This document shows positions 1-16,731 of a stretch of 64,000 nt of DNA, one piece after another. A program made the translations under genes and the position numbers. How positions within the stretch are numbered: the stretch's first letter is position 1; each line of letters opens with the position of its first letter. This DNA comes from an uncultured Rhodospirillales bacterium. GTDB taxonomy: Bacteria; Pseudomonadota; Alphaproteobacteria; ATCC43930; CGMCC-115725. The stretch spans positions 1-64,000 of the forward strand of contig CAIKMD010000006.1 of the NCBI GenBank assembly GCA_903828515.1, in the 5' to 3' direction. The notes under the pieces are model-generated. The model was given only the letters and a program-made list of their open reading frames with translations. It made no database searches and was not told where the DNA came from.

Positions 1-1
1 C

Positions 2-1132
2 GACCTCGGCGAATTGAAGACCGTCATGTCGATGGACTTCAGCCTGTTCGCCAACCAGGCGAACTACATCGGCACCTCGACCTCGAACAACAAGCCGAGC
101 CCGGGCGCCGGCAACTCCGAAGCGCCGCGTATCCTGTGGGCTTACGGCACCATCGGTCCGTGGTTGATCGGTCAGACCAACACGGCGTGGGCCGATCCGT
201 TGCTCTCGCCGTCGGACGTCGGCGATCCAAACACGATGGGGTTCGTCACGACCTCGAACGTGCGCCAGCCGCAGATTCGCTACACCTATCTCGCGGGCAA
301 CGGCATCACCCTGTCGGGTTCGTTGGAAGCCCATCCGAATGGCGCGCGATACATCACGCCGTCGAGCTCGACGGTTGCCACGATCGCCACGACGATGACC
401 CTGGCGACGGTGGGTTCGTTCGCATCGGATAACACCGATACGGGCGGCATCACCAACCTGCCGAGCTTCAACACCGGCATCGCCTGGGATCAACCCTGGG
501 GCCATTTGATGGCGCGCGTCGGCGTTGCCCAGGTCCAGATTCGCAATGCCACGAGCGGCACGCAGATCACCGGCACGTTCTGTGCGACCGGCACGGTCTG
601 CACCAACACCGCAACCAACAACCTGACCAAAACAGGTTGGGCGGCGGAAACGGGTTTTGCCCTCAACACGTGGGGCCAGGACCAGTGGAAGGGCCTCGTC
701 AACTATACGGCTGGCACGGGTAACTGGGACTCGGACCTGGGCTCGACCGGCGGCGAAGCGTTCATCAATGGCTACACCGGCCAGTTCTCGTTGGTGAAGA
801 CGCTGGCGGTGGAAACCAGCTACACGCACCGGTTCAACCCGAATTGGCGCATGACGGCGGAAGTCGGCGTGAACTTCTATAACAAGCCGAGCAGCGCGGC
901 CGGTCTGACCAACACCTGCGGCACCGGTCCGGCGACGTGTAACGCTACCGCGGCTCAGCTGGCTTCGCTTGAAAAGCGGCATTTATCGTCGCATCTCGTC
1001 GGTGTCTGGGCGCCCTTGCCCGGCCTGTTTGAAATTACCGCTGCGTGGAACCACTGGGAACGCACGGTGCAAGCCTCCAGCACATCCGGCCAGAGCAACT
1101 CATACAGTCTCCAGGCTGCCTTCTACTGGTAG
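2..1132 (+). CDS. outer-membrane porin, C-terminal part (5' end outside window)
   Basis: Reading frame is open from the window edge (DLGELKTVM...). Beta-barrel-like composition with alternating aromatic/Gly/Thr residues, terminal aromatic YSLQAAFYW, and a strong terminator follows. Confidence 0.7.
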   Translation, partial: DLGELKTVMSMDFSLFANQANYIGTSTSNNKPSPGAGNSEAPRILWAYGTIGPWLIGQTNTAWADPLLSPSDVGDPNTMGFVTTSNVRQPQIRYTYLAGNGITLSGSLEAHPNGARYITPSSSTVATIATTMTLATVGSFASDNTDTGGITNLPSFNTGIAWDQPWGHLMARVGVAQVQIRNATSGTQITGTFCATGTVCTNTATNNLTKTGWAAETGFALNTWGQDQWKGLVNYTAGTGNWDSDLGSTGGEAFINGYTGQFSLVKTLAVETSYTHRFNPNWRMTAEVGVNFYNKPSSAAGLTNTCGTGPATCNATAAQLASLEKRHLSSHLVGVWAPLPGLFEITAAWNHWERTVQASSTSGQSNSYSLQAAFYW

Positions 1133-1174
1133 CGCCACCGGTTCCAGTTCCACGGCTGGACCCATGGCGGATTG

Positions 1175-1207
1175 CCCGCCGGCCGAAAGGCCGGCGGGTT
1201 TTCTTTT
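1175..1207 (+). terminator. Rho-independent terminator after the porin gene
   Basis: Perfect 10-bp GC stem cccgccggcc-gaaa-ggccggcggg followed by ttttctttt. Confidence 0.9.
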
Positions 1208-1320
1208 GCGCGGATCGGGCGGCGCCCGATATTCCGGGGCGGCATTGCCGCCCGTGCGATGTTAGGCTCGGCCCCAATTGATGGCCGGTTTCGCGACCAT
1301 CTCGGGGAGGAGTATGTCCG

Positions 1321-2247
1321 GTGCCACGTCTTTTCATCGCCACGCTGGTGACTGCCGCGCTGACACTGGTTGCCGCGGCCCGCGCGGATACGCGAATCCG
1401 GGTCGGCCAGACGCCCGCCGCGTCGCTGGTCGCCAGTTATATCGCGCAGGAAAAAGGTTTCTTCACGCGCCGGGGGCTCGAGGTCGAGCTGCAGCCGATC
1501 GTTCTCAACTCGAACATCCCGGCCGGCATCGTCGCCGGCTCGACCGATATCGGTGGCACGACGACGACCGTGCTGCTGCAGGCGGTCGATAGCGGCATCG
1601 ACCTGGTGACCGTGTCGGGAACCAACGTGACCTTCAAGGAAAGCAAGAACAGCGCGATCATCGCGCGGAACGAATCAGGGATTTCCGCGCCGGCGGATTT
1701 CGTCGGCAAGAAGATCGGCGTGCCGGGCCTCGGCGCCCTCGCCCATGTGTCGCTGCGCAACTGGCTGACGCAGCACGGCGTCGACTACACACGCGTCAAC
1801 TATGTGGAGCTTTCGTTTCCGCAGCAGCGCGATGCGTTGCAGAGCGGTCTGGTCGACGCGGTGGTGACGGTCGAGCCGACCTATTCGCGGATCTTGGCAG
1901 CGGGTCTCGGCAAGGACGTCGGCCACGCCTTCGACAGCCTGCCGCCCGGCACCCAGACCATTCTTTATTCGACGACGCGCGAATGGGCGACCGCGCATCG
2001 CGACGCCGTTCGCGCCTTCCACGAGGCGAACGAGGAGGGCACGCGCTATGCGCTCGCCCATCTCGACGAAGCGCGCGCGGCGATCGCGAAATACATGAAG
2101 CTGCCGCCCGATGCCGCGAACGACGTCGAAATGCCCCGGCTCAGCGCGACGGTCACGGTCGCGGACCTCGCGGTCATCGCCGACATCATGAAGCAACAGG
2201 GCATGCTGCACGCGCCGATCGACCCGGCGAAATTACTCTTTCCCTAG
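1321..2247 (+). CDS. ABC transporter substrate-binding protein (NMT1/SsuA-like)
   Basis: N-terminal signal peptide followed by IRVGQTP...YIAQEKGFFTRRGLEVEL and ...SGIDLVTVSG, typical of the NMT1/THI5-like SBP fold. Confidence 0.85.
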   Translation: MPRLFIATLVTAALTLVAAARADTRIRVGQTPAASLVASYIAQEKGFFTRRGLEVELQPIVLNSNIPAGIVAGSTDIGGTTTTVLLQAVDSGIDLVTVSGTNVTFKESKNSAIIARNESGISAPADFVGKKIGVPGLGALAHVSLRNWLTQHGVDYTRVNYVELSFPQQRDALQSGLVDAVVTVEPTYSRILAAGLGKDVGHAFDSLPPGTQTILYSTTREWATAHRDAVRAFHEANEEGTRYALAHLDEARAAIAKYMKLPPDAANDVEMPRLSATVTVADLAVIADIMKQQGMLHAPIDPAKLLFP

Positions 2248-2295
2248 AGCAAGATCGCATCAGGTTGAATCAACCTGATGCGTGAATCTTGCTCT
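2246..2295. repeat. long palindromic intergenic repeat (REP-like)
   Basis: agagcaagat ... catcaggttga/atcaacctgatg ... atcttgctct; nested inverted repeat over ~50 nt. Confidence 0.75.
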
Positions 2296-2308
2296 GATTC
2301 TTGAATTT

Positions 2309-2333
2309 AGAGCCTGATCGATGATCAGGCTCT
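2309..2333. repeat. short palindrome, possible bidirectional terminator/REP unit
   Basis: agagcctgatcgatgatcaggctct; overlaps the stop codon of the minus-strand permease. The 15-mer tagagcctgatcgat recurs at 21373. Confidence 0.65.
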
Positions 2334-3090
2334 ATGCGCGCCAGCGCAGCAGCCAGGATTCGAGCAGGCTGACGATCTGCACGCTGGCATAGCCGATCAG
2401 GCCGAACAGCAGGACGCCGGCAAAGAGATCGGGCGCGCGGAAGGCCCGTGCCTGCAGCATGATCCAATAACCGAGGCCCGGACTGCCCGAGAGTATCTCG
2501 CCGGTGACCGAGAGGATCAGCGCGATGGTCAGGCTCAGGCGCATGCCGGCAAGGATTTCCGGCATCGCGTTGGGCAGGGCGATGCTGAGAATGAACTGGC
2601 GACGGCTCAACCGCATCAGCCGCGCCACTTCGTGGAGGCGTGGCTTGACCGTGGCGAAGCCGTTGATCGTCGCCAGCAGGGTCGGCCACAACGCGCCGAA
2701 GCCGATGACGACCAGCACCATGTTCTCGGTCAGGCCAAAAAACGCGATCAGGACCGGGAATAGCGCCGAGGCCGGCAGGGGACGGAAGAATTCGAGTGTG
2801 GGCGCGAGATAGGCGCGCGCGGTCGACGAAATCCCGACCGCCGAGCCGATGAGGATGCCGCCGAGCGAGGCGAGCAGCCAGCCATAGAACATGTGCTCAA
2901 GCGTAAGCAGAACGCGGCTGGCAAGATCGCCGCGCTCGATATCGAACAGCAACGCGGCCCAGGCGCGATCCGGTGGCGGCAGGAAGATCGGCGAGACCCA
3001 ATGAAGGTTGGACGCCAATTGCCATATCCCGACGATGAAGGCGGCGACGCCGACGCTGAGCAGCAGCAGGAGGAGGCGTTTCGGTGTCAT
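2332..3090 (-). CDS. ABC transporter permease (SsuC/TauC-like)
   Basis: MTPKRLLLLLLSVGVAAF...; BPD_transp_1-like with EVARLMRLSRRQFILSIALPNAMPEILAGMRLSL (EAA loop). The longer ORF to 3834 is a frame artefact over the neighbouring gene. Confidence 0.88.
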   Translation of the reverse strand: MTPKRLLLLLLSVGVAAFIVGIWQLASNLHWVSPIFLPPPDRAWAALLFDIERGDLASRVLLTLEHMFYGWLLASLGGILIGSAVGISSTARAYLAPTLEFFRPLPASALFPVLIAFFGLTENMVLVVIGFGALWPTLLATINGFATVKPRLHEVARLMRLSRRQFILSIALPNAMPEILAGMRLSLTIALILSVTGEILSGSPGLGYWIMLQARAFRAPDLFAGVLLFGLIGYASVQIVSLLESWLLRWRA

Positions 3091-3854
3091 GGCCGCGCCC
3101 TGAATGCGACGGTGCCGAAAATTCGCCGCTGAAACCACAGCAGCGCCGCGTTGATGAGCCAGCCGACGAGGCCGACCCAGAACAGATAGGCAAAGACGAG
3201 ATCGGGCCGCAGCGATTCCTGCGCGCGCATCATCGCGTAGCCGAGGCCCAGCGGGTTGGCGGCGATCTCGACGGTGACCGCCACCACCAGCGCCGCGCCG
3301 ACGGCGATGCGGAATCCGACGAAGATGCCGGGCAACGCCGCCGGAATGACGATCTTGAAGACGCGCGCGATCAGGCCCATGCGCAGCAATCGGGCCACTT
3401 CGAGGAGGCGTGGCTTGACGCCGCGCACCGCCGCAATGGTCAGCAACAGCACCGGCCAGAACGAGGTCTTGGCGATGAGGGTGATCTCCATCGCGTAGCC
3501 GAGGCCGAAGATGAGCAGCGCGATCGGGATCAGCGCGACCGATGGGATCGGGCGCAGCGATTCGACCGTCACCTCCATCAGCCGGTTGAAGATGACGAAG
3601 AGGCCCATCAGCGTGCCGAATATGAGCCCGAGGCTGGCGCCGATCGCCAACCCGCCCAGTGCCGACAGCAGGGTCTGCGCGGTCGCGTGCAGCATCGAGC
3701 CGTCGAGCAGCGCGGTGGCCGCGGCGGCAACGATCTCGCTGGGGCGCGGCAGGCTCGAACTTTGATAGTCGGTCAGTCGCGCGGCGATCTCGGCGGTCGC
3801 CAGAACCCCGACCGGCAGGACCGCGCCGCGCCAATCGATCGCGCGCAATCTCAC
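3087..3854 (-). CDS. ABC transporter permease (SsuC/TauC-like)
   Basis: Multiple TM segments and EAA loop EVARLLRMGLIARVFKIVIPAALPGIFVGFRIAVG; 4-nt overlap with the downstream permease. Confidence 0.88.
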   Translation of the reverse strand: MRLRAIDWRGAVLPVGVLATAEIAARLTDYQSSSLPRPSEIVAAAATALLDGSMLHATAQTLLSALGGLAIGASLGLIFGTLMGLFVIFNRLMEVTVESLRPIPSVALIPIALLIFGLGYAMEITLIAKTSFWPVLLLTIAAVRGVKPRLLEVARLLRMGLIARVFKIVIPAALPGIFVGFRIAVGAALVVAVTVEIAANPLGLGYAMMRAQESLRPDLVFAYLFWVGLVGWLINAALLWFQRRIFGTVAFRARP

Positions 3855-4636
3855 GTCTGGGTTCCGCGAATGAATTCGAGGAGGACGCGCCGCAGATGCA
3901 TGAATTCCGGCTGCTCGGGCGTGGTGCGCTGGTCGCGCGGATGCGGCAGGTCGACCGGATAGGTGGCGGCGATGCGGCCGGGATGCGGCTTCATCGCGAT
4001 CACGCGATGGCCGAGATAGATCGCTTCTTCGAGATCGTGGGTGACGAAGAACACCGTCGTGCCGGTGTCAGCGACGATGCGCAGGATCTCGTCCTGGAGG
4101 CTCTGGCGGGTGATCGCATCGAGCGCGCCGAACGGCTCGTCCATCAGCCAGACCTTAGGCTCCTGCGCCAGACAGCGCGCGATCTGCAAGCGCTGCTGCA
4201 TGCCGCCCGAGAGCTGCGACGGGTATTTGTCGGCATGCTCGGCAAGCCCGACCCGCGCCAGGACCGACGCGATGCGGTCGGCGCGCTCGTCGCGCGGTGT
4301 GCCCAGCGTCTCATAGACCAGCGAGACATTGCCCGACGCGGTGCGCCACGGCAGCAGCGCATCGCTGTAATCCTGAAACACCACGGCGACGTCGCGCTGC
4401 GGGCCGACGATGTCGTGGCCTTCATAGAGAACCCGGCCGGCGCTCGGCGGCAACAGGCCGGCCGCCAGGCGCAGCAGCGTGGTCTTGCCGCAGCCCGAGG
4501 GGCCGACGACGCAAAGGAATTCGCCCTTGTGCATGTCGAGATCGATGCCGGTCAGGATCGGCTTGCCGCCGAACGCCACCTCGATGCCGCGAAAGGCGAT
4601 CAGCGCCGGCTCGGCTGGTGCGGCCGCCTCGCTCAT
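3851..4636 (-). CDS. ABC transporter ATP-binding protein (SsuB/TauB-like)
   Basis: Walker [10 protein letters not shown], signature LSGGMQQR, Walker [14 protein letters not shown]-loop VTHDLEEA. Confidence 0.93.
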
Positions 4637-5586
4637 GGGGAGATAAGCTTGCTCGCGTCCAGTTTCGTGCGCAGGCGGTCCTGCTCGATCATCGTATCGA
4701 GCCACCACTTGAAATCCGCGGCGGCGACGTTCGACGACAACGGCGCCAGTTCGGTTGTGGCCATGACTTCCGGTTTGAGATTGAGGGTTCGCCCGACGAT
4801 CTCGATCGCCTCTTTCGGATTGGCCTTGCCGAACGCGACGGCTTCGACGATGGCGGCGCGAAACGCCGTGAGTTCCTGGGGATGAGCCTGGACCCAGGCC
4901 CGGGTCGAACTGTTCACGATCGACGAAATGCTCGGGGCGGACGGAATGCTGCCCACCACCTCGGCGATATAGCGCGCCATGACCTTGCCGGTGCCGGCGG
5001 ACACGATCGCGCTCATGAACGGATCCGGAATCAACACGCCGTCGATATTGCCGGTCTTGATGACGTTCGGCATGTCGGAATAGGCGACCTCGAGCATCGT
5101 GACGCTCTTGAGGTCGAGGCCTTTGACCGTCAGCCATTTGTCGAACATGATTTCGGAAACGCCGCCGATCGTGCTGGTGGCGATGCGCTTGCCCTTGAGG
5201 TCGGCCGGCGTCTTGATGGTGCTGTCGGTGCGGATCACGATGCCGCTGTCGTTGAGGTTCGCGGTGAAGACCGACAGGCCCGTCACGGCCACGAGATCGA
5301 TGCCGCCATCGGCGGCCTGGATCATCGTCGGTGTCGCCAGGGTGCCGATCTGGATGGAATTGGCGACGAGGCTCGGGACGAGGACGCTGCCGCCGCGCAC
5401 CAGCAGCAGGTCGACATCGAGGCCGTGCTTGGCGAAGAAGCCTTTGTCCTTGGCGATGTAATCGGCGGCGTTGCCGCCGACCGCCGTATAGCCGATGACG
5501 ATCTTGTCGAGGGCCGAGGCCGGCGCTGCGCCGAGGATCGACGCGGCAAGGAGTATTGCCGCCGTGATGTGATGGATGATTTTCAT
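4633..5586 (-). CDS. ABC transporter substrate-binding protein (NMT1/SsuA-like)
   Basis: Signal peptide ...[45 protein letters not shown]; close paralogue of the 9501-10439 product. Confidence 0.87.
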
Positions 5587-5608
5587 CGTTTCCTCGTGGG
5601 CGTTGCGC

Positions 5609-6652
5609 TCAATACCCGGAAAGTTCGCGATGAAGGTCCAGGAGAGCCGGTATCGTCGCGACCGGACGTTGTCCCCAACCGCATTCCGTCGCGATGAGAA
5701 AGTCCGATCGAAATGTTTGTGCGCTTTTCATGCGCGTCCGTCCGCCGCTGACGCCGTCCGCCGGGTGAACGAGGCCGAGCGCGATTTCGGTTTCGGGGTG
5801 AAGCCGCAATCGGGCCAGCGGCGCGAAATAGCCTGCGTCGGACCGGTTCTGCGGCACCGGCATGTGAATGAGATCGATCGGGCGCTTGATCCGCTCGCTG
5901 ACCCGGTTGGCCATCGCGACCATATCGCCCATGTCGCTGGGCTCGACCGTATGCTTTTCGCCGGTGTAGCCGTAGCAGAAGTGATACATCAGCTCGACTT
6001 GTTCCGGGACGCCCTCGCCCAAGGCCACCAGATTGGCGGTGAAGGTCTCGATCATCGCTGCCTTGGTGGCGCCGTACCGCGTCGGCTGATTCCATTCGAG
6101 CCGGGCAAACACGCGCGAGGCGATGTCCCATTGGATCGCCAGTTCGTGCGCGGGGATGACCTTGAGCATCTCGCCAATCTGGCCGATCAGCGCGCGGTCG
6201 TAAGCCGGCTCCAACACCTCATGTAGTTCCTCGACGAACCAGCGCCAGATGACGACATGCCCCGGCGCTAGGTCGAACTGGAAACGGCAGGCCGGCGGAA
6301 TTTTGCCGGCCTTTTTCAATGTCTCGAACGCCCGATAATCCTCGATCGCGAAGCGCGCATGGGGAAGATTGAAGCGCACGTCTTTCGCGGCGAGGCCCGG
6401 TGCGATGGTGTATTTCGCGACGCCCGGATCGCCGGGCTTGTCGGCGAGGCTGTGAATCGTACCGGTTTTGACGAATTGCGGATCGGCCGCGAAGATTTTG
6501 TCCTGCCACGCCGACCAGCCGCGGCGCGCGCCGGTTTCGCCGTCCGGCAAACGCTTGAGCCGCGGGCCCAACGCGTCGCTGAGCACGTCGAAGCCTTGTG
6601 CGGCGTTCGCGAACGGCATGCTGCCGACGACGTGGATATGGCGACCGGTCAT
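5609..6652 (-). CDS. single-barrel MetE-like / cobalamin-independent methionine synthase II-family protein
   Basis: MTGRHIHVVGSMPFANAAQGFDVL...LPDGETGARRGW; HFCYGY and ATECGWG resemble the MetE Zn-ligand regions. Start placed at 6652 inside the longer ORF. Confidence 0.65.
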   Translation of the reverse strand: MTGRHIHVVGSMPFANAAQGFDVLSDALGPRLKRLPDGETGARRGWSAWQDKIFAADPQFVKTGTIHSLADKPGDPGVAKYTIAPGLAAKDVRFNLPHARFAIEDYRAFETLKKAGKIPPACRFQFDLAPGHVVIWRWFVEELHEVLEPAYDRALIGQIGEMLKVIPAHELAIQWDIASRVFARLEWNQPTRYGATKAAMIETFTANLVALGEGVPEQVELMYHFCYGYTGEKHTVEPSDMGDMVAMANRVSERIKRPIDLIHMPVPQNRSDAGYFAPLARLRLHPETEIALGLVHPADGVSGGRTRMKSAQTFRSDFLIATECGWGQRPVATIPALLDLHRELSGY

Positions 6653-6663
6653 CCGCAAGGGCC

Positions 6664-7689
6664 TCAGCCGGGCAGCCAGGTGATCGCGCGAATTTCGCCG
6701 AGCCGTCGCTTGACCGCGCTCCACGTCTCGCCGCCGTCTTCGCTGCGATAGATCTGGCCGAGCGTCGCGGCGAGATAGATCAGGTTCGGGTCGGCATGAT
6801 GGACGCCGAGGAAATAGGCCGAGCTTTCGACCGTGCCCGGCAGGCTCACCTCGTTCCAGGTCTCGCCGTGGTCGCGGCTGCGGAACAGTTTGCCGCCGCT
6901 GCCCGGTGGGCCATTGCCGTTGGTGACGAACATCACGCCGGTATGGTCCATGCGCTCGAGGATGCTGCGCGTGTACTGCCAGGGCGATTCGAGGCGGATA
7001 TGCCGCCAATGCGTGCCCGCATCCGCGCTGACATGGATGCCGGAGGGCGAGGTGATGAACAGTTTTTGCGCGCCCTTGGCATCGTCGATACAGGCGAGGC
7101 CGTGAATGTCCTGCGTGTCGAGACTGTCGGAGATGCGTTCCCAGCTGTCGCCGCCGTCGCGGCTGCGCCATGCGCCGTCGATCTCGACGCCGGCCCAGAC
7201 CTGGCGGGAATCCTTCGGGTCGAACAGGACCTGCGTCACGCGCGTCCAATGCTTCACCGCGTTGGCCGGCGGCGTTTTGGTCTTCGAATCCTTTTCGCCG
7301 CCGTAAAAGCCGCTGCTGGTGTAGGGCTTCACCGGCGCATTGAGCTGACGCCAGGTATGTCCGCCGTCGTCGGTACGAAACAGCGCCGAAGGCTGCGTGC
7401 CGAGGATCATCACCTGCGGATTGTCCGCCGCGATGGCGATCGCCGTCACCATCATCGTGTCCGTCGGCGACGGGATATGCGTCCAGAAATTCTCGCGCTG
7501 GTCGAGGCGATAGAGCCCGCTATCGGTGCCGGCGAACAGCATGTTCGGCAGATCGCGGTGACTTGCCAAGGCCCAGACCTGGCTGCCGCTGTACATGCCG
7601 GTGCCGCTGGGCATGCGCGAAATCTTCGCGCCCATCGCGTCGCAGCTCCAGACCGACAATCCGTTGGTGGCGACATAGAGATGCGACAT
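6664..7689 (-). CDS. Asp-box/BNR-repeat beta-propeller protein (sialidase/YVTN-like)
   Basis: Five Asp-box-like motifs: RTDDGGHTW, RSRDGGDSW, VSADAGTHW, RSRDHGETW, RSEDGGETW. No signal peptide. ATG at 7689 preferred (alternative TTG at 7707). Confidence 0.75.
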   Translation of the reverse strand: MSHLYVATNGLSVWSCDAMGAKISRMPSGTGMYSGSQVWALASHRDLPNMLFAGTDSGLYRLDQRENFWTHIPSPTDTMMVTAIAIAADNPQVMILGTQPSALFRTDDGGHTWRQLNAPVKPYTSSGFYGGEKDSKTKTPPANAVKHWTRVTQVLFDPKDSRQVWAGVEIDGAWRSRDGGDSWERISDSLDTQDIHGLACIDDAKGAQKLFITSPSGIHVSADAGTHWRHIRLESPWQYTRSILERMDHTGVMFVTNGNGPPGSGGKLFRSRDHGETWNEVSLPGTVESSAYFLGVHHADPNLIYLAATLGQIYRSEDGGETWSAVKRRLGEIRAITWLPG

Positions 7690-7703
7690 GACCGATACCT
7701 CGC

Positions 7704-8639
7704 TCAATGGCCGCGATAGACCGGCTCGGGTTGGGAAAAGAACGACAACAGGATGTGATAGACCACCGCGTAATTCTTCTGCTGGAACGACGCGTGCGAG
7801 ATGCCGGGCATCACCGCGAATTGCTTGTCGGCGTTCGGCAGCTTGGCGAAGAATTTGACCAGATCGTCGAAACTGGCGATGCCGTCATATTCGCCGCGCA
7901 TCAAAATCGTCGGCACGACGATCTTTTCCGGATCGACCAGCGGCAGTTTCGAGCACATATCGACATAGGTGCCGGTTGGCATCGAATCGTCGAGCGCCAG
8001 GATCGCGTCGGCAAAGACATCGACGACGGCGGTGTCGGCGGTGCCGGCATGGTCGCGGGTGAAGATCGAATGGACGAAAGCGCGGTCGATCGGACGCCGG
8101 TTGAGCGCCTGATATTCCGCGAGGCGCTTGCGCCGCTCGATCAGGGTCGGACTGCCGTCGCCGGTCCACACCATGGCGTCGAGCGCGAGACGCTTCACGC
8201 GGTCGGGCCGGCGTTGCGCGAAGAGCGCGGCGCGCAGCGCGCCCGACGAGATGCCGTAGACCATGAGCGGCACCGGTCCTTCGACCGATGCGATATAGGC
8301 GGCGGCGGCCTCGAGGTCGTCGGCGCCGTTGGCGATGTCGGAGTTGATCGGCCGGTTCTTGTCCGAGCGGCCATAGCCTTCCATGTCGACGCACCAGGTC
8401 GAGAAGCCACGAGCGGCGAACCAATCCATCGCCGAGGCATCGGGTTTTCCCTTCATCTGCAGATCGAAGGTCGGCTGCGACGCCATCGACGAGCCGTGGA
8501 CGAAGAGGATGGTGCCGCGCGCCGGCATGGTGGCGGCTGCCGGCTTCTGCCAGAGAAACAGGCGCACATCGCCCTTTTTGGTCCAGTGCTCGCGACCGGT
8601 TCCACCGTCTTTCGGACGAGGGTTTGTTTCACCCGACAT
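7704..8639 (-). CDS. alpha/beta hydrolase
   Basis: GTILFVHGSSMASQPTFDL, YGISSGALRAALFAQRRPDRVKRLAL (nucleophile elbow GISSG), C-terminal MPGISHASFQ. ATG at 8639 preferred. Confidence 0.82.
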   Translation of the reverse strand: MSGETNPRPKDGGTGREHWTKKGDVRLFLWQKPAAATMPARGTILFVHGSSMASQPTFDLQMKGKPDASAMDWFAARGFSTWCVDMEGYGRSDKNRPINSDIANGADDLEAAAAYIASVEGPVPLMVYGISSGALRAALFAQRRPDRVKRLALDAMVWTGDGSPTLIERRKRLAEYQALNRRPIDRAFVHSIFTRDHAGTADTAVVDVFADAILALDDSMPTGTYVDMCSKLPLVDPEKIVVPTILMRGEYDGIASFDDLVKFFAKLPNADKQFAVMPGISHASFQQKNYAVVYHILLSFFSQPEPVYRGH

Positions 8640-8675
8640 TGACCGCCGCTCCCTGATCGGCAAGGTCATGAGTTA

Positions 8676-8697
8676 GACCATCATAATCGGAATGGTC
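8676..8697. promoter_or_regulatory. candidate operator in divergent hydrolase/GntR intergenic region
   Basis: Inverted repeat gaccat-N10-atggtc. A second one, accaat-N7-attggt, lies at 8764-8782. Confidence 0.4.
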
Positions 8698-8770
8698 AAG
8701 GCAGATTCGCCAGATCGTGCCCTTGTATTGGGCATTTCCACGAATTAGAAGATCGTGATATAGACCAATT

Positions 8771-9514
8771 ATGAGTATTGGTATGAATTCAAAGAGCGAT
8801 CGGATTCTGAGCGAACTGCGCCACCGGATCGTCGACGGACGCTTCCCGCTGCACAGCCAGCTTCCCGCCGAACGGCTGCTGGCCGAGGAGCTCGCCACCA
8901 GCCGCGTCACCCTGCGCAAGGCGCTCGCGCTGCTCGAAGCCGAGGGGCGCATCTGGCGGCATGTCGGACGCGGCACCTTCATCGGTTCAGGCCCGCCGGC
9001 GCCGACGGGTGGCGCTTTGGCGATCGGTACGGGAGCGAGCCCGCTCGAGCTTCTGGAGGCGCGGCTGGTGATCGAGCCCGCGATTGCGGCTCATGCCGCC
9101 ACGTCGGCATCGAGCGCCGACATCGCCTACCTGAAGCTTTGTCTCCAGAAGCGTGAAGACGCGCCGACCGCCGAACTCTACGAATTGTGGGATCATCGCC
9201 TGCATCGGGCGATCGCCGATGCCACGCATAATCCGCTGCTGATCGCGATCCTCGAGATGCTGAACCAGTTGCGCCAGCAGCCGGAATGGAAGGCCTATCG
9301 GCGCACGACGTTGACGGCCGGGCGCCGGGTCGAATCCGCGCAACAGCATGGCGCCATCGTCGCGGCGATCGAGGCGCGCGATCTGCAGTCGGCATTCACC
9401 GGCATGCAGACTCACATCCGGACGATTCAAACCAACATCGATCATTCGCAAAGCACGGGCAAAGAAGTCGTCGACGCCCAACGTGACGTGTCGCCGTCGC
9501 TCATGGAGCGATAA
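8771..9514 (+). CDS. GntR/FadR-family transcriptional regulator (FCD domain)
   Basis: wHTH SDRILSELRHRIVDGRFPLHSQLPAERLLAEELATSRVTLRKALALLEAEGRIWRHVGRGTF plus FCD-like C-terminus. Alternative start at 8783. Confidence 0.9.
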   Translation: MSIGMNSKSDRILSELRHRIVDGRFPLHSQLPAERLLAEELATSRVTLRKALALLEAEGRIWRHVGRGTFIGSGPPAPTGGALAIGTGASPLELLEARLVIEPAIAAHAATSASSADIAYLKLCLQKREDAPTAELYELWDHRLHRAIADATHNPLLIAILEMLNQLRQQPEWKAYRRTTLTAGRRVESAQQHGAIVAAIEARDLQSAFTGMQTHIRTIQTNIDHSQSTGKEVVDAQRDVSPSLMER

Positions 9515-10439
9515 GTTTGCTCGCGTCGAGTTTTGTGCGCAGGCGATCCTGCTCGGTCATGGCGTCGATCCACCATTTGAGATCGTCCGGCGTGATCGTC
9601 GCGGTGATCGGCGCCAGCCCCATGGTGGCCACGATTTCCGGTTTGAGGTTGAGCGTCTTGCCGATAATTTCCTTGGCCTTGGCGGGATTGGCCTCGGCGA
9701 AGGCGACGGCCTCGACGGTCGCGGCGCGGATCGCCGCCACTTCCGGCTTGTGCGTCTCGGCCCAGGCGCGGGTCGTGGCATTGACCAGGGCGGGGAACCG
9801 GGCGCCGGCCTCGCCATAGTAATAGGACAGGATCTTGCCCGATCCCGCCGCGACGATCGCGCTCATGAACGGATCGGGGATGAGGACCGCGTCGATGTTG
9901 CCGGCTTTGATCACATCGGGCATTTCGGCATAGGCGACCTCGACCATCTTCAGGGTCTTGAAGTCGACGCCTTTGAGCTTCAGCCAGTGATCGAAGACGA
10001 TCTCGGAGACGCCGCCGATCGTGCTGGTGCCGACGCGCTTGCCCTTGAGGTCGGCGGGGACGTTGATGTTCGCGGCGTTGCCGACGACGACACCGCTATC
10101 CTTCATCCCCGGCTCGAAGACCGAGAGGTTGGTGATTGCGACCAGGTCGATGCCGCCATCGGCGGCCTGAAGCAGCGTCGAGGCGCCGACCGTGCCGACC
10201 TGGGCCGAATTGGCGACGAGGCTCGGGACCAGCACGTTGCCGCCGCGCATCAGCAGGAGTTCGACGTCGAGACCGTGCTTGGCGAAGAAGCCCTGGTCCT
10301 TGGCGATGAAGTCGGGAACGTTGCCGTTGACCGCCGTGTAGCCGAGCACGATCTTGTCGAACGCGGATGCCGGATCGGCACCGGCGAGCGACGCGGCGAG
10401 AGCCAAGGCCGTGATCGGCCATTGAAATCTTTTCATCAC
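9501..10439 (-). CDS. ABC transporter substrate-binding protein (NMT1/SsuA-like)
   Basis: Shares [44 protein letters not shown] with the 4633-5586 product. Confidence 0.87.
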   Translation of the reverse strand: MMKRFQWPITALALAASLAGADPASAFDKIVLGYTAVNGNVPDFIAKDQGFFAKHGLDVELLLMRGGNVLVPSLVANSAQVGTVGASTLLQAADGGIDLVAITNLSVFEPGMKDSGVVVGNAANINVPADLKGKRVGTSTIGGVSEIVFDHWLKLKGVDFKTLKMVEVAYAEMPDVIKAGNIDAVLIPDPFMSAIVAAGSGKILSYYYGEAGARFPALVNATTRAWAETHKPEVAAIRAATVEAVAFAEANPAKAKEIIGKTLNLKPEIVATMGLAPITATITPDDLKWWIDAMTEQDRLRTKLDASKLIAP

Positions 10440-10530
10440 GTCTCGCGCCCCCGTCCGTTCTCACCCTTGCCGAGGAGTATCGCCGCCGGTTCGCGGCGGT
10501 ATGTCCCTCGGGGAGAGGACAGTTGACGGA

Positions 10531-11319
10531 TCAGCGCATGACGAGGCGGCCGAGTTCGTAAGCGCTGGTCACGTTCAATCGCTGATAGGCGCGTTTGCGA
10601 TAGGTCAGGATCGACGAGACCCCGATGCCGAGATCGAGCGCCGCGCCCTCGGCGGTCATGCCGATGGCCGCCCGCGCGCAGGTCTCGCGCTCGCGCCGCG
10701 TCAGGGCGGGAAACAGTCGGGCAAAGCGGCTCTCCAATTCGTCGATCGCGCCTTGCGTGTCGAGCGAACCCTGATGGGCGAGCGTCTCGTTGCGCTCGAT
10801 CATCGGCATCAGCAATCGCGCGAACCCGCCAAGCAGCTCCAATTCCCCGTCGTCGAACCCGCCGCTACTGGTCTTGCGCGCCACCGTCATACAGCGCCAG
10901 CCGTCGTTGGACCGGCGAATGAACGACACGCGCTCGACGATCCCGGCATGTTCCAGCATCCGGCGATAGCAATCGGCGACGATGTCGCGCGGCTTGACCC
11001 GAAGCTGGATCGTCGCCTGCGGCTCGTCGAGGGCGTCGATCGCGCGCCGGATCGGGTCGCGCGGGAGAAACTGGCTGGCATACATCCCGTCGGCGACGTG
11101 CGGCTTTTCCGGTTCGCAGAAATGGATCAAGGGCCGTAAGCCCCCAGCGCCGCCCGCGATGTCGAAGACATAGAACCGGTCGACATGGGTGAGGCCCTCG
11201 ACCGCTTCGGTCGCGGCGCCGACGAAGCGCTCGGAGCCGAGCGCGCCCATCGCATGCGCGTGGGCGTCGAGAACCGCCGCGGCAATCGGCGCCGATTCGA
11301 TATGTTTGAGGCTCGCCAT
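10531..11319 (-). CDS. LuxR-family transcriptional regulator
   Basis: C-terminal HTH LTRRERETCARAAIGMTAEGAALDLGIGVSSILTYRKRAYQRLNVTSAYELGRLV; ggggaggatc upstream of ATG at 11319. Confidence 0.82.
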   Translation of the reverse strand: MASLKHIESAPIAAAVLDAHAHAMGALGSERFVGAATEAVEGLTHVDRFYVFDIAGGAGGLRPLIHFCEPEKPHVADGMYASQFLPRDPIRRAIDALDEPQATIQLRVKPRDIVADCYRRMLEHAGIVERVSFIRRSNDGWRCMTVARKTSSGGFDDGELELLGGFARLLMPMIERNETLAHQGSLDTQGAIDELESRFARLFPALTRRERETCARAAIGMTAEGAALDLGIGVSSILTYRKRAYQRLNVTSAYELGRLVMR

Positions 11320-11508
11320 GATCCTCCCCAAGTGTCTTACGGCTTGTCCTTGACCGGAATGCTACTCCGAAGCGGCGTCAACGCCTAGGCGCCTGTCCCT
11401 TTGGCGGTGGACATATCCGTGGCCCCCCTTTGCGTATGAAGATCAGGGTCGTGCATGACGGGATGCGGCCAGGCTTGGTTTGTCGCCGCGGCGACCGGAG
11501 GACCTTCG

Positions 11509-12519
11509 ATGAAGTTCGGGCTGTTCATGGGAATTTGGGAAAACCCGAAGGCCGAGGGCGATCTCCACAAGATCCTGCATCAGGTCGTCGACTACATCCT
11601 CCATGCCGAACGGCTCGGCTATATCTCGACCTTCCTGACCGAGCATCATTTCACCGGCCTGCCGCAAATCCCGTCGTCGCTGACCGTGCTGTCCTATCTC
11701 GCGGCGCGCACGACGACGATGCGGCTCGGCACCGCGGTCACGATTCTGCCCTGGCACAATCCGCTGCTGCTCGCCGAGGAAATCGGCACCCTCGATCTCT
11801 TGTCCAACGGGCGCTTCGATTGCGGCATCGGGCGCGGCTTTCGCTACACCGAATGCCGCGGGTTCGGCATCCCCGGCGAGGAACTCGGCGCGCGTTTCGA
11901 CGAAGCGCTCGAGGTGCTGCAAAAGGCTTGGGCGGCGAAGGGCCGGTTTTCCCATCACGGTAAATACTGGAATTTCGACGACGCGATCATCGACCCGCGG
12001 CCGATTCAAAAGCCGCATCCGCCGGTCTGGGTATCAGCCGCCAGCGAAGCGTCGCTGCGCCGCACCGCGCAACTCGATTACAACCTCCTGCTGGCGCAAT
12101 TCGGCGACGCCACGGAGATCGGCAAGAAGCTGCGCTGCTACAAGGAGGCGACCGAGGCATGCGGCCGCCGCTTCGATCCGATGCGGGTCGGCGTCACCCG
12201 CGCCTTCCATCTCACGAACAACGAGGCCGAGACCCAGGCGGCGCTCGACCATCATCATCATGTGCTGGCCAATAACCGCAAACTATCGTCGGACCCGAAC
12301 AATACCGGCGGGTCGGTCTATCGCGCGCCGGCCGCCTCGGGCGACGCCGACAACATCTGGCTGATCGGCACCCACGACCAGATCGTGCGCCGGCTCAATT
12401 CATTGAAAGATGAAGGTGTCGAATACGTCATGCTGATCGACACGGCGGGCGATATCGGCAGCCTCGAACGCTTCGCCGCCGATATCGTGCCGATCTTCGA
12501 TCGTCCGGGCGCCGTTTAG
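11509..12519 (+). CDS. LLM-class flavin-dependent oxidoreductase
   Basis: MKFGLFMGIWENP...AERLGYISTFLTEHHFTG...RLGTAVTILPWHNPLLLAEEIGTLDLLSNGRFDCGIGRG, luciferase-like monooxygenase pattern. Confidence 0.9.
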   Translation: MKFGLFMGIWENPKAEGDLHKILHQVVDYILHAERLGYISTFLTEHHFTGLPQIPSSLTVLSYLAARTTTMRLGTAVTILPWHNPLLLAEEIGTLDLLSNGRFDCGIGRGFRYTECRGFGIPGEELGARFDEALEVLQKAWAAKGRFSHHGKYWNFDDAIIDPRPIQKPHPPVWVSAASEASLRRTAQLDYNLLLAQFGDATEIGKKLRCYKEATEACGRRFDPMRVGVTRAFHLTNNEAETQAALDHHHHVLANNRKLSSDPNNTGGSVYRAPAASGDADNIWLIGTHDQIVRRLNSLKDEGVEYVMLIDTAGDIGSLERFAADIVPIFDRPGAV

Positions 12520-12854
12520 ACCGCCGGCATCAGCTGCGCGGTGATCGCTTCCTCGGTCATCGTGCCGTTGCCGAGGGGATCGACGATCGAGTAGACGACG
12601 AATCCCATTTGCAGGAATTTCTTCGCCCGTTCGAGCGCCGCGCCACGGGTGGCGTCCTGCGCCGTGTTGAAGACGCCATCGCGCCGTTTGGTGTCCCAGG
12701 TGATGAGCCATTGGGTCGCCTGTTCGACGCCCTCGGCCATCTTGATGCGATGCCAGTTGGGCGTGCTGACCTTGCCTTCGATGGTGGTGAGCGGCGGCAA
12801 TTGGGTGCCGAATTTGCCCGTCGACTTGGTCCATTTGGGTTTCTGCGCGGCCAT
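12516..12854 (-). CDS. hypothetical protein, 112 aa
   Basis: Well-formed small ORF (MAAQKPKWTKSTGKFGTQLPPLTTIEGK...) with ggagaag upstream; shares stop-codon bases with the LLM gene. Confidence 0.55.
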   Translation of the reverse strand: MAAQKPKWTKSTGKFGTQLPPLTTIEGKVSTPNWHRIKMAEGVEQATQWLITWDTKRRDGVFNTAQDATRGAALERAKKFLQMGFVVYSIVDPLGNGTMTEEAITAQLMPAV

Positions 12855-13121
12855 GGGCTTCTCCTGTTAACGAGGGCGAACGACGCTCTGCCGGCGGGCG
12901 AGCCCGCCGGATGCCGCATCACGCGAAGTGCATTGATGAAATCAGTATAGCCGATAATCACGCTCTTGGGGGGCCGCCCGGTCCGATTTCCCAAACCGTC
13001 GGATTTCGCCCGGTTTTCCGGGGGTTTTGGGTGCCAAGGGCCGGGGCGACTTGACCTGGCAGCGGCGGCGGCGACAATAAGCGTTCCTAATGGCGGTACT
13101 CGCCCCGGAGGTTCGTCGCCC

Positions 13122-13514
13122 TTGTATTCGGAAATCACGCGGTCGATCAAAGTCGTGGTAAAGCCCTATTACCTTGAAGACCAGTCCTCGCCGGCGGAAA
13201 ACCGCTATGTCTGGGCCTATCACGTCCGGATCGAGAATCAGGGCGGCGAGACGGTGCAGTTGCGCCGCCGCCATTGGCAGATCACCGACGCGATGGGGCG
13301 GCTCCAGGAAGTGCGCGGCCCCGGCGTGGTCGGCGAGCAGCCGGTTTTGGCCCCCGGCCAAAGCTTCGAATACACCTCGGGCACGCCGCTCGCGACGTCG
13401 TCGGGCATCATGGTCGGCAGCTATGAAATGGAAACCCCCAACGGCGAGTGTTTCGCGGTCGCCGTTCCTGCCTTCTCGCTCGACAGCCCGCACGAGCCCC
13501 GCCGCCTGAACTGA
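13122..13514 (+). CDS. apaG: ApaG (Co2+/Mg2+ efflux-associated) protein, TTG start proposed
   Basis: [78 protein letters not shown]. Confidence 0.92.
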
Positions 13515-13536
13515 TCCCCGATCGGAGCGATCCGCC

Positions 13537-14178
13537 ATGCCAGCGAAATCCACGCGCCGCAAGAGCGCGCCCAAATCGAAACGTCCCGCGAAACCCAGCC
13601 GCGCCGCCGCCGAAGAGGCGGTGCGCACGCTGATCCGCTGGGCCGGCGACGATCCGAACCGCGAAGGCCTGCTCGCGACGCCGTCGCGCGTGGTGCGTTC
13701 CTATGAGGAATTTTTCTCGGGCTATACGACCGATCCGGTCGAGCAGTTGCAGCGCACCTTCGAGGAGACCGACGGCTACGACGAGATGGTGGTCCTCAAG
13801 GACATCCGCTTCGAGAGCCATTGCGAGCATCACATGGTGCCGATCATCGGGCGTGCCCATATCGCCTATCTGCCGGATGCCCGCGTGGTCGGCATCTCGA
13901 AGCTCGCGCGCCTCGTCGAGGTCTATGCGCGTCGCCTGCAGATCCAGGAAAAGATGACCGCGCAGATCGCCAATACGCTATCGCAGGTGCTGCGCCCCAA
14001 GGGCGTCGCCGTGGTGGTCGAGGCGGCGCATCAATGCATGACGACGCGCGGCGTGCACAAGCCCGGCGTCACCATGATCACCTCGCACATGCTGGGCGCG
14101 TTCCGTGACGACGCCTCGACACGGCGCGAATTCCTCGTCCATATCGGCACGCTCGACAGCCGCAACGCGAACGTTTAG
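13537..14178 (+). CDS. folE: GTP cyclohydrolase I
   Basis: [63 protein letters not shown]. Confidence 0.95.
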
Positions 14179-14190
14179 CGCCCCTTAAGC

Positions 14191-14277
14191 CGTCATCGCC
14201 GGACTTGTTCCGGCGATCCACGTCTTGCGTTGAGAGGGTTTAAGTCGTGGATGGCCAGGTCAAGCCCGGCCATGACG
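14191..14277. repeat. composite palindromic repeat (two hairpins forming a larger inverted repeat)
   Basis: cgtcatcgccggacttgttccggcgatccacg ... cgtggatggccaggtcaagcccggccatgacg; imperfect ~32-nt arms. Confidence 0.75.
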
Positions 14278-14289
14278 AGGAACTTAGAT

Positions 14290-14868
14290 TCAGCGCGACA
14301 GCAGGTACGTGCCGAAATTGTTGCGCATCTGCTCTTCGATCTGCCGGTCGAAATCGGTCATCGTCGCTTTGACCAGATCGTAGCGCGCCTGATCGCGATC
14401 GTTGATCGTCGAGCTTTGCAGCACGGTCATGGCGCGCGCGGCGGTGGCGCGCACGGTCCGTATCGCCATCTGGTGATCGTCGAGAAGTTCGAGCGTGCCG
14501 TCGACCGTGACGTCGTATTGTTGCGAGATCTGATCGGTGACCGCGCCGCTGATGCCGCTGGTGTTCGCCGGAATGTTCTTTACCGCGGCGCTCGCGTTGA
14601 TGGTGAACCGCGCCGGCCCGCCTTGGCCGTTGGGGCGCAGCCGGTCATTCGCCCAGTTCTCCATCGCGTGAGCCGGCTGGACCGGATAGCCCGGATCGCC
14701 GGCCGTGGCGCTCTGGTTGCGGATGACGATCTGGCTCGCCTGCAGCGCCAGCGGCCGCTCGCCGGTAAAGTGAATGTCGGCGAAGTTCGGCGTCATCGCC
14801 GGCGGTCCGCACGATGCGAGCAGGAAAGTGGCAACGGCGAGCGTCAGCAGATGATGGCGTGCGATCAT
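14290..14868 (-). CDS. putative lipoprotein
   Basis: MIARHHLLTLAVATFLLASCGPP lipobox. Confidence 0.75.
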   Translation of the reverse strand: MIARHHLLTLAVATFLLASCGPPAMTPNFADIHFTGERPLALQASQIVIRNQSATAGDPGYPVQPAHAMENWANDRLRPNGQGGPARFTINASAAVKNIPANTSGISGAVTDQISQQYDVTVDGTLELLDDHQMAIRTVRATAARAMTVLQSSTINDRDQARYDLVKATMTDFDRQIEEQMRNNFGTYLLSR

Positions 14869-14884
14869 GGTGTCGGCCTCCAGC

Positions 14885-15796
14885 TCAGGTGGTGGCGAGC
14901 GCTTTCAGCGCGTCCGCATCGAAGGGATAGGACGTGTTGCAGAATTCGCAAGTGACGACGATCTGGCCGTCGACCTTCATATCCTCGAGGTCGTCCGGCG
15001 GCAAGGCGCGCAGCATGTCCTCGACCCGGCCTTGCGAGCAGCGGCATTGCGCGGCGAGAAGATGCGGCGGATGCGCGCGCACGCCGTCTTCGTGAAAGAG
15101 ACGGAACAGCAATTGTTCGGCCGGCAATGACGGATCGACCAGTTCGGCCGAGGTCGACGAGGCCATGAAGATGGTGGCGCGCCGCCACGCCTCGTCTTCT
15201 TCCTCGCGCTCCAAGGTGAAGCTCTCGCGCGGCAGGCGCTGGATCATCAGCGCGCCGGCGCGCCAGTGGAGCGCGCCCGTTTCATCGGGCACGCGCGCGA
15301 CCGCGACCTTGATCGCGGCTTCGACCTGCTCGCTCTGGCGAAAATAATGATGCACACATTCTGCCAAGGTCGCGCCCTGCAATTCGACAATGCCCTGATA
15401 GCGTTCGGTGTGCTCGCCCTGATCGACGGTGAGCGCGAGATACCCGGCGCCGAGAAGCCGAGGTACCGCTGCGCCGCTTGCCGGCGCAGCAGCAAGGCGT
15501 TCGTGATCGACCTGGGCATAGCCGCGGATGGCGCCGGCGGTGGTGACGTCGGCGACCAGCAGCTTGATCGGCCCATCGCCCTTGGTTTGGAGCGTGAAGA
15601 CGCCTTCGTATTTGAGCGCGCCCGCCAGCGCCACGGCGAGCGCGATTGCCTCGCCGAGCATGACGGCCGCGCGCTCGGGATAATCGTGCTGGGTGAGAAT
15701 CTTGTCGATCGCGGGGCCGAGCCGAATCAGCCGGCCGCGCACGGCGAAGGGTTCGATCTGGAAGGGATGAATGCGATCGTCGGCGACCGGCGCCAT
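14885..15796 (-). CDS. hslO: Hsp33 redox-regulated chaperone
   Basis: C-terminal zinc site CRCSQGRVEDML...CEFCNTSYPFD; RGYAQVDHE. Confidence 0.93.
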   Translation of the reverse strand: MAPVADDRIHPFQIEPFAVRGRLIRLGPAIDKILTQHDYPERAAVMLGEAIALAVALAGALKYEGVFTLQTKGDGPIKLLVADVTTAGAIRGYAQVDHERLAAAPASGAAVPRLLGAGYLALTVDQGEHTERYQGIVELQGATLAECVHHYFRQSEQVEAAIKVAVARVPDETGALHWRAGALMIQRLPRESFTLEREEEDEAWRRATIFMASSTSAELVDPSLPAEQLLFRLFHEDGVRAHPPHLLAAQCRCSQGRVEDMLRALPPDDLEDMKVDGQIVVTCEFCNTSYPFDADALKALATT

Positions 15797-15801
15797 CGTG
15801 A

Positions 15802-16731
15802 TCAGGCCAGGCACCAGGCCAGGATCGCCTTCTGCGCGTGCATGCGGTTCTCGGCTTCGTCCCACACCACCGATTGGGGGCCGTCGATCACCCCGGCGGT
15901 GACTTCCTCGCCGCGCTTGGCCGGCAGGCAATGCATGAAGATCGCATCGCGCTTGGCGTGCGCCATCAACGCTTCGTCGACGCGATAGGGCGCCAAAAGA
16001 TCGGGCCGAAAAAGTTTCGGATCGGCGCCCATCGACACCCAGGTGTCGGTGACGACGCAGTCGGCGTCCTTCGCCGCGGCGCGCGGATCGGACATCACGC
16101 TGACTTTGCCGTTCTCGCGCTTCGCCCAGGCGAGCGCCTGCGCGGAAGGCTGGACGTTGGCCGGACAGGCGAGGCGCAACTCGAAGCCGAAGCGCACGGC
16201 GGCGTGGATCCAGCTCGTCGCGACATTGTTGCCGTCGCCGCTCCAGCACACGATCTTGCCGGCGGCCGGGCCTTTATATTCTTCGAGCGTCATCACGTCG
16301 GCCATGATCTGGCACGGATGGCTCGCATCGGTCAGGCCGTTGATCACCGGTATGCTGGCATTGGCCGCGAGGTCTTCGAGCTTCGCCGGTGCTGCGGTGC
16401 GGATCATGATCGCATCGACATAGCGCGACAGGACCTTGGCGGTGTCGGCGATCGGCTCGCCGCGCGCGATCTGGCTTTCGGCCGCCGTCATGGTGATGAC
16501 GTCGCCACCCAACTGGCGCATCGCCACTTCGAAGGAGAGGCGCGTGCGCGTCGAGTTCTTCTCGAAGATCATCGCCAGCGTCTTGCCCTTGAGGAGCGGC
16601 GTGCGATCCTGGGTCGCTTTCCACTGCGCGGCCTGATCGAGCATGCGGCGCAACTCGACCGCGCTCAGGCGGTCGAGATCGAGGAAGTGGCGGGGCGCCG
16701 CCTTGGTCGGGGCCTTGGTCACAATTTCCAT
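15802..16731 (-). CDS. argF: ornithine carbamoyltransferase
   Basis: FEKNSTRTRLSFEVAMRQLGG, NGLTDASHPCQIMAD, FMHCLPAKRGEEVT. Confidence 0.95.
   Translation of the reverse strand: MEIVTKAPTKAAPRHFLDLDRLSAVELRRMLDQAAQWKATQDRTPLLKGKTLAMIFEKNSTRTRLSFEVAMRQLGGDVITMTAAESQIARGEPIADTAKVLSRYVDAIMIRTAAPAKLEDLAANASIPVINGLTDASHPCQIMADVMTLEEYKGPAAGKIVCWSGDGNNVATSWIHAAVRFGFELRLACPANVQPSAQALAWAKRENGKVSVMSDPRAAAKDADCVVTDTWVSMGADPKLFRPDLLAPYRVDEALMAHAKRDAIFMHCLPAKRGEEVTAGVIDGPQSVVWDEAENRMHAQKAILAWCLA

Follow-up and report, generated by a model that had tools for sequence, protein, structure and literature searches.

A putative GntR-controlled uptake-and-processing operon with a single-barrel MetE-fold protein in an uncultured Rhodospirillales bacterium

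Three closely packed minus-strand genes, encoding an alpha/beta hydrolase, an Asp-box beta-propeller and a single-barrel protein with the MetE fold, raise the question of whether they form a dedicated catabolic module or were brought together locally beside an importer. They lie in a 64 kb stretch of genomic DNA from an uncultured Rhodospirillales bacterium (the whole stretch is hereafter called the window). An initial annotation, made from the sequence alone, had read them as a module with gaps of about 11–14 nt, placed just upstream of ABC importer genes and divergent from a GntR regulator. This layout was borne out, with measured gaps of 14 and 11 nt and a regulator gene with an FCD domain on the opposite strand (Table 1). 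The three protein identities were also confirmed, by Pfam for the hydrolase and propeller and by profile matches and Foldseek for the MetE-fold protein. The link to the importer had been understated, as the trio and the importer constitute one seven-gene run on a single strand, in the order hydrolase, propeller, MetE-fold protein, solute-binding protein (SBP), ATPase and two permeases. The intergenic gaps along this run are 14, 11, 22, −4, −4 and −4 nt; that is, the SBP gene starts 22 nt past the MetE-fold gene, and the ATPase and both permease genes each overlap their predecessor by 4 nt. The hydrolase gene has an alternative ATG start at 8669. From the sequence, we infer that the seven genes are probably co-transcribed under GntR control.

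Table 1. Coordinates of the seven-gene run, the divergent regulator and a neighbouring solute-binding protein gene in the window.
Feature	Position	Strand	Size or evidence
Alpha/beta hydrolase, first gene of the run	8639-7704	minus	311 aa
Asp-box (BNR) beta-propeller	7689-6664	minus	341 aa
Single-barrel MetE-fold protein	6652-5609	minus	347 aa
NMT1/SsuA-type solute-binding protein (SBP)	5586-4633	minus	Pfam NMT1 1.5e-28
ABC ATPase, nitrate/taurine type	4636-3851	minus	Pfam ABC_tran 1.7e-32
First ABC permease	3854-3087	minus	Pfam BPD_transp_1 4.3e-17
Second ABC permease, end of the run	3090-2332	minus	Open frame, position, BLAST relatives adjacent to ABC ATPases elsewhere
GntR-family regulator with FCD domain	8771-9514	plus, divergent	Pfam FCD 3.5e-22, GntR 2e-17
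Second NMT1-type solute-binding protein, beyond the GntR gene	10439-9501

A candidate GntR operator, ACCAAT-N7-ATTGGT, was found at 8764-8782, where it overlaps the start of the GntR gene, and it was the only exact match in the 64 kb. A repeat search revealed a second inverted repeat, GACCAT-N10-ATGGTC, at 8676-8697, and no Rfam RNA elements were detected in positions 1-16000 of the window. The N-terminus of the SBP resembles a signal peptide. Its score against the aliphatic-sulfonate family model TIGR01728 was 127.8 bits, lower than the cut-off of 163.5, and the taurine models scored far below their cut-offs; the ATPase matched TIGR01184 with an E value of 1e-66, likewise below the cut-off. 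None of the seven genes identifies a substrate, and no genes for a methyl donor, a corrinoid protein or C1 oxidation are present within the run. Two additional solute-binding proteins of the NMT1 type and a luciferase-like monooxygenase are encoded around the operon, at 1321-2247, 9501-10439 and 11455-12519, and these surroundings hint at a larger uptake region.

If the three genes formed a conserved functional module encoding one dedicated pathway, as their tight spacing on a single strand might indicate, the triplet should recur in related genomes. It was therefore searched for in 39 genomes of the family (all three genes), 43 of the order (propeller), 386 of the class (propeller and hydrolase), a plasmid collection and 80 loci from genome contigs. 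None of the 80 MetE-fold loci (39–53% identity) had a relative of either the hydrolase or the propeller in the examined flanks, and none of the hydrolase or propeller loci carried the other two genes. No close propeller turned up in any other genome of the family (39 genomes) or order (43 genomes); hydrolase and MetE-fold relatives exist in these genomes at other places. The sole genome of the same genus had no propeller match and encoded 45–46% identical relatives of the hydrolase and MetE-fold protein at separate places. Among the 386 class genomes, a close hydrolase was found in 19 and a close propeller in seven (the window's own genome is included in both counts), and only one other genome contained both, on different contigs. 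The combination of a hydrolase and a propeller could still be a repeated theme, since a gene for an LVIVD-type beta-propeller lies near hydrolase relatives in six importer-operon loci (L071, 14097-15368; L072, 14132-15403; L198; L201, 9289-10698; L204; L205). Overall, the proposal of a module, for which the neighbourhood search found no second instance in the loci examined, is largely refuted at the sampled depth, and we consider a conserved dedicated pathway very improbable. As the triplet occurred in no other sampled genome or locus, it appears, within the reach of this search, to be an arrangement particular to this locus.

Although no second triplet was found at this depth, the nearer members of each family usually adjoin importers of organic solutes. 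An importer gene was located within 4 kb in 30 of 38 loci of MetE-fold relatives (the set with 44–53% identity; Fisher p = 0.0015), 14 of 17 loci of hydrolase relatives (p = 0.007) and six of seven loci of propeller relatives (p = 0.03), compared with seven of 20 random loci, a small control set from the window's genome and one other, and some of the test loci are related to each other. The flanks were searched with importer proteins as probes, some of which were taken from the same loci. Importers are common in the window's genome, lying near 30–45% of random loci. The distant MetE-fold relatives (Chloroflexota, Nocardia) were importer-associated in only one of 38 cases, and the propellers with 30–35% identity in none of 13. 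These results suggest that the operon is a locally assembled uptake-and-processing set. They also bear on the explanation that the neighbours are functionally unrelated, that is, accessory-region enzymes sharing a promoter with the importer by chance. Such an origin would fit the lack of conserved pairings beyond the importer association and the generally importer-rich region, with its further solute-binding proteins and luciferase-like monooxygenase; however, all three families are separately enriched near importers and the spacing is typical of operons, which makes a chance assemblage rather unlikely. Two observations, the layout of the operon and the frequency of importers beside the nearer relatives of each gene, thus support the earlier proposal that a small organic substrate is imported and processed.

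The hydrolase belongs to the Hydrolase_4/Abhydrolase group (Pfam E value, 7e-20), and its putative triad, S131 (in a G-x-S-x-G motif), D252 and H282, was invariant in all 22 aligned sequences. Its relatives occur mostly with TctABC, in Skermanella and others, and several also with a GntR-FCD regulator; in three loci (L075, L200 and L203), an Afu/Pot-like ABC importer is found beside them. The catabolic clusters of Skermanella with a tripartite tricarboxylate transporter (NZ_CP086113, NZ_CP086107) share with the window a 74–78% identical hydrolase, a GntR-FCD gene and importer genes. They differ from it in having TctABC rather than an ABC importer, an LVIVD-type rather than an Asp-box propeller and, in place of the MetE-fold gene, genes for aldo/keto reductase, FAH-family and CoA-ester-lyase proteins. 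The only solved structures matched by the LVIVD-type propeller were haloalkylphosphorus hydrolases, and these matches were weak. Its assignment as a selenium-binding protein/methanethiol oxidase was rejected, as the SBP56 match covered a short stretch and was below the cut-off.

The propeller of the window matched Sortilin-Vps10 (3.9e-21) and PSII_BNR (2.5e-13) in Pfam, and the GH74 and 3b7f propellers in profile searches. It shares the Asp-box repeat type and sequence similarity with 3b7f, Ycf48/HCF136 and GH74 xyloglucanases, but differs from these in being a single propeller of 341 aa with no apparent signal peptide. Folding from the single sequence gave no confident model (pLDDT 40). Eight residues (H44, E169, D194, H196, Y239, R241, E332 and R334) are invariant among the relatives, and these conserved polar positions suggest a binding or catalytic pocket. 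A sialidase or glycosidase function was considered and rejected, because the similarity was at the level of the fold family and no glycan genes were seen around the propeller.

The MetE-fold protein matched no Pfam or NCBIfam model, and neither it nor any of 17 family members matched Pfam PF01717; searches of the literature collection that was available turned up no account of the family or of the gene set. Its fold was nevertheless predicted with high confidence (AlphaFold with 62 sequences; pLDDT 94.3, pTM 0.93). The Foldseek matches ranked 1–12 were all MetE/B12-independent methionine synthases (probability 1.00) and spanned about one of the two MetE barrels, with 12–14% identity in the structural alignments. 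A profile of 17 relatives matched 1ypx, which belongs to the B12-independent methionine synthase family (E value, 7e-4), and when profiles were compared with those of the Meth_synt_2 paralogues from the window's own genome, the probability was 92% (E value, 7e-7). In comparison with MetE, the protein has the barrel fold of the C-terminal (Meth_synt_2, PF01717) barrel, the H-x-C and C-G zinc motifs and the Ser/Glu/Asp residues of the homocysteine site, whereas it is a single barrel lacking the folate domain and a Pfam match.

In a joint alignment with 10 Meth_synt_2 paralogues, the inferred zinc site of the MetE-fold protein was H224-C226-H263-C324. His224, Cys226 and Cys324 were kept in 62 of 62 homologues and, together with S11, E39 and D176, coincided with the same residues of the paralogues. 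The homocysteine-site residues were also retained (S11 in 60/62, E39 and D176 in 62/62); we take these, from motif knowledge and PMC7857596, to correspond to Ser433, Glu484 and Asp599 of Escherichia coli. The fourth zinc-ligand column was His263 in all 62 members but Glu in nine of the 10 paralogues, and thus the family departs from the His, Cys, Glu/Asp, Cys ligand set of MetE and Mes. Membership of the MetE/Mes family therefore fails on the zinc feature, whereas the fold and the substrate-site residues agree. Retention of the homocysteine site makes homocysteine, or a thiol resembling it, the more likely acceptor, and the methyl or C1 transfer suggested earlier would fit with the conservation of this site and of the zinc residues. 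A single MetE-like barrel without a folate domain is also the architecture of the core methionine synthases MesA-MesD (PMC7857596) and bacterial core-MetE (PMC7005905). The present family shares this architecture but differs in its inferred H-C-H-C zinc set, in place of H-C-E-C or H-C-D-C, and in that its nearer members usually adjoin organic-solute importers.

This resemblance raises the alternative that the MetE-fold protein acts as a Mes-type core methionine synthase, forming methionine from homocysteine, and that the operon supplies methionine or sulfur through an importer of the aliphatic-sulfonate type. The MetE fold, the kept homocysteine-site residues and the best NCBIfam matches of the SBP, to the aliphatic-sulfonate and taurine families albeit below cut-off, are consistent with this role, as is the position of the gene beside recJ in some relatives, with homoserine dehydrogenase close in two. 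Against these points, the genome of the window encodes a complete MetH elsewhere and nine genes of the MetE-fold family, and a methionine synthase operon would have no place for a hydrolase or a propeller. The genome also contains 19 further Meth_synt_2 single-barrel genes, giving approximately 28 single-barrel MetE-type genes in 4.8 Mb; no open frame among its listed Meth_synt_2 genes was long enough for a two-barrel MetE. Across 144 alphaproteobacterial genomes, it had the highest number of Meth_synt_2 matches at an E value of 1e-5 or better (15, followed by 8), and 91 genomes had none. Given the nine family genes, the approximately 19 other single barrels and the full MetH, methionine synthesis is an improbable role for this protein. 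The recJ linkage was observed in several Alphaproteobacteria MAGs, mostly Hyphomicrobiales (L088, L091, L092, L097, L101 and L103), and the homoserine dehydrogenase gene in L092 and L103.

We therefore prefer, at a probability of roughly 0.5, to read the locus as a GntR-controlled, co-transcribed uptake-and-processing operon that was assembled locally, rather than as a conserved module, from families in which the nearer members are regularly found with importers. In this operon, the ABC importer would bring in a small organic substrate, and the cytoplasmic alpha/beta hydrolase might split an ester or lactone linkage or one like it. A zinc-bound thiol (homocysteine or similar) on the MetE-fold enzyme could then take up a methyl or another alkyl group, donated by the substrate or by what is made from it, and the propeller may bind or convert an intermediate. 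The substrate, the order of reactions, the zinc binding and the alkyl transfer in this scheme are all predictions from sequence. In itself, such an operon would be an unremarkable gene set for import and breakdown in a soil-type bacterium. A broader and more tentative idea, to which we give clearly less weight, is that an undescribed family of enzymes with an H-C-H-C site moves methyl or alkyl groups from imported compounds to a homocysteine-like thiol and thus represents a branch of the MetE fold devoted to catabolism. If so, a set of Pfam-less genes in Proteobacteria, Chloroflexota and Actinomycetota of soil and groundwater could be credited with stripping alkyl groups from compounds in the environment, and the functions of the MetE fold would extend beyond making methionine.

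In the family tree, the MetE-fold protein of the window forms an isolated, long branch (1.08 changes per column) within the importer-associated clade, and position 229, at which its relatives keep Asp, is occupied by Tyr. Because of this isolated branch and the Tyr substitution, its own function may have drifted or may not be the one that its relatives perform. Elsewhere, MetE-fold genes are often found as neighbouring pairs, one approximately 50% and the other approximately 36% identical to the window's protein (L089, L090, L093, L102 and L126), and the two members of a further pair (L036) are 45% and 42% identical to it. This pairing suggests that the products could be paired subunits.
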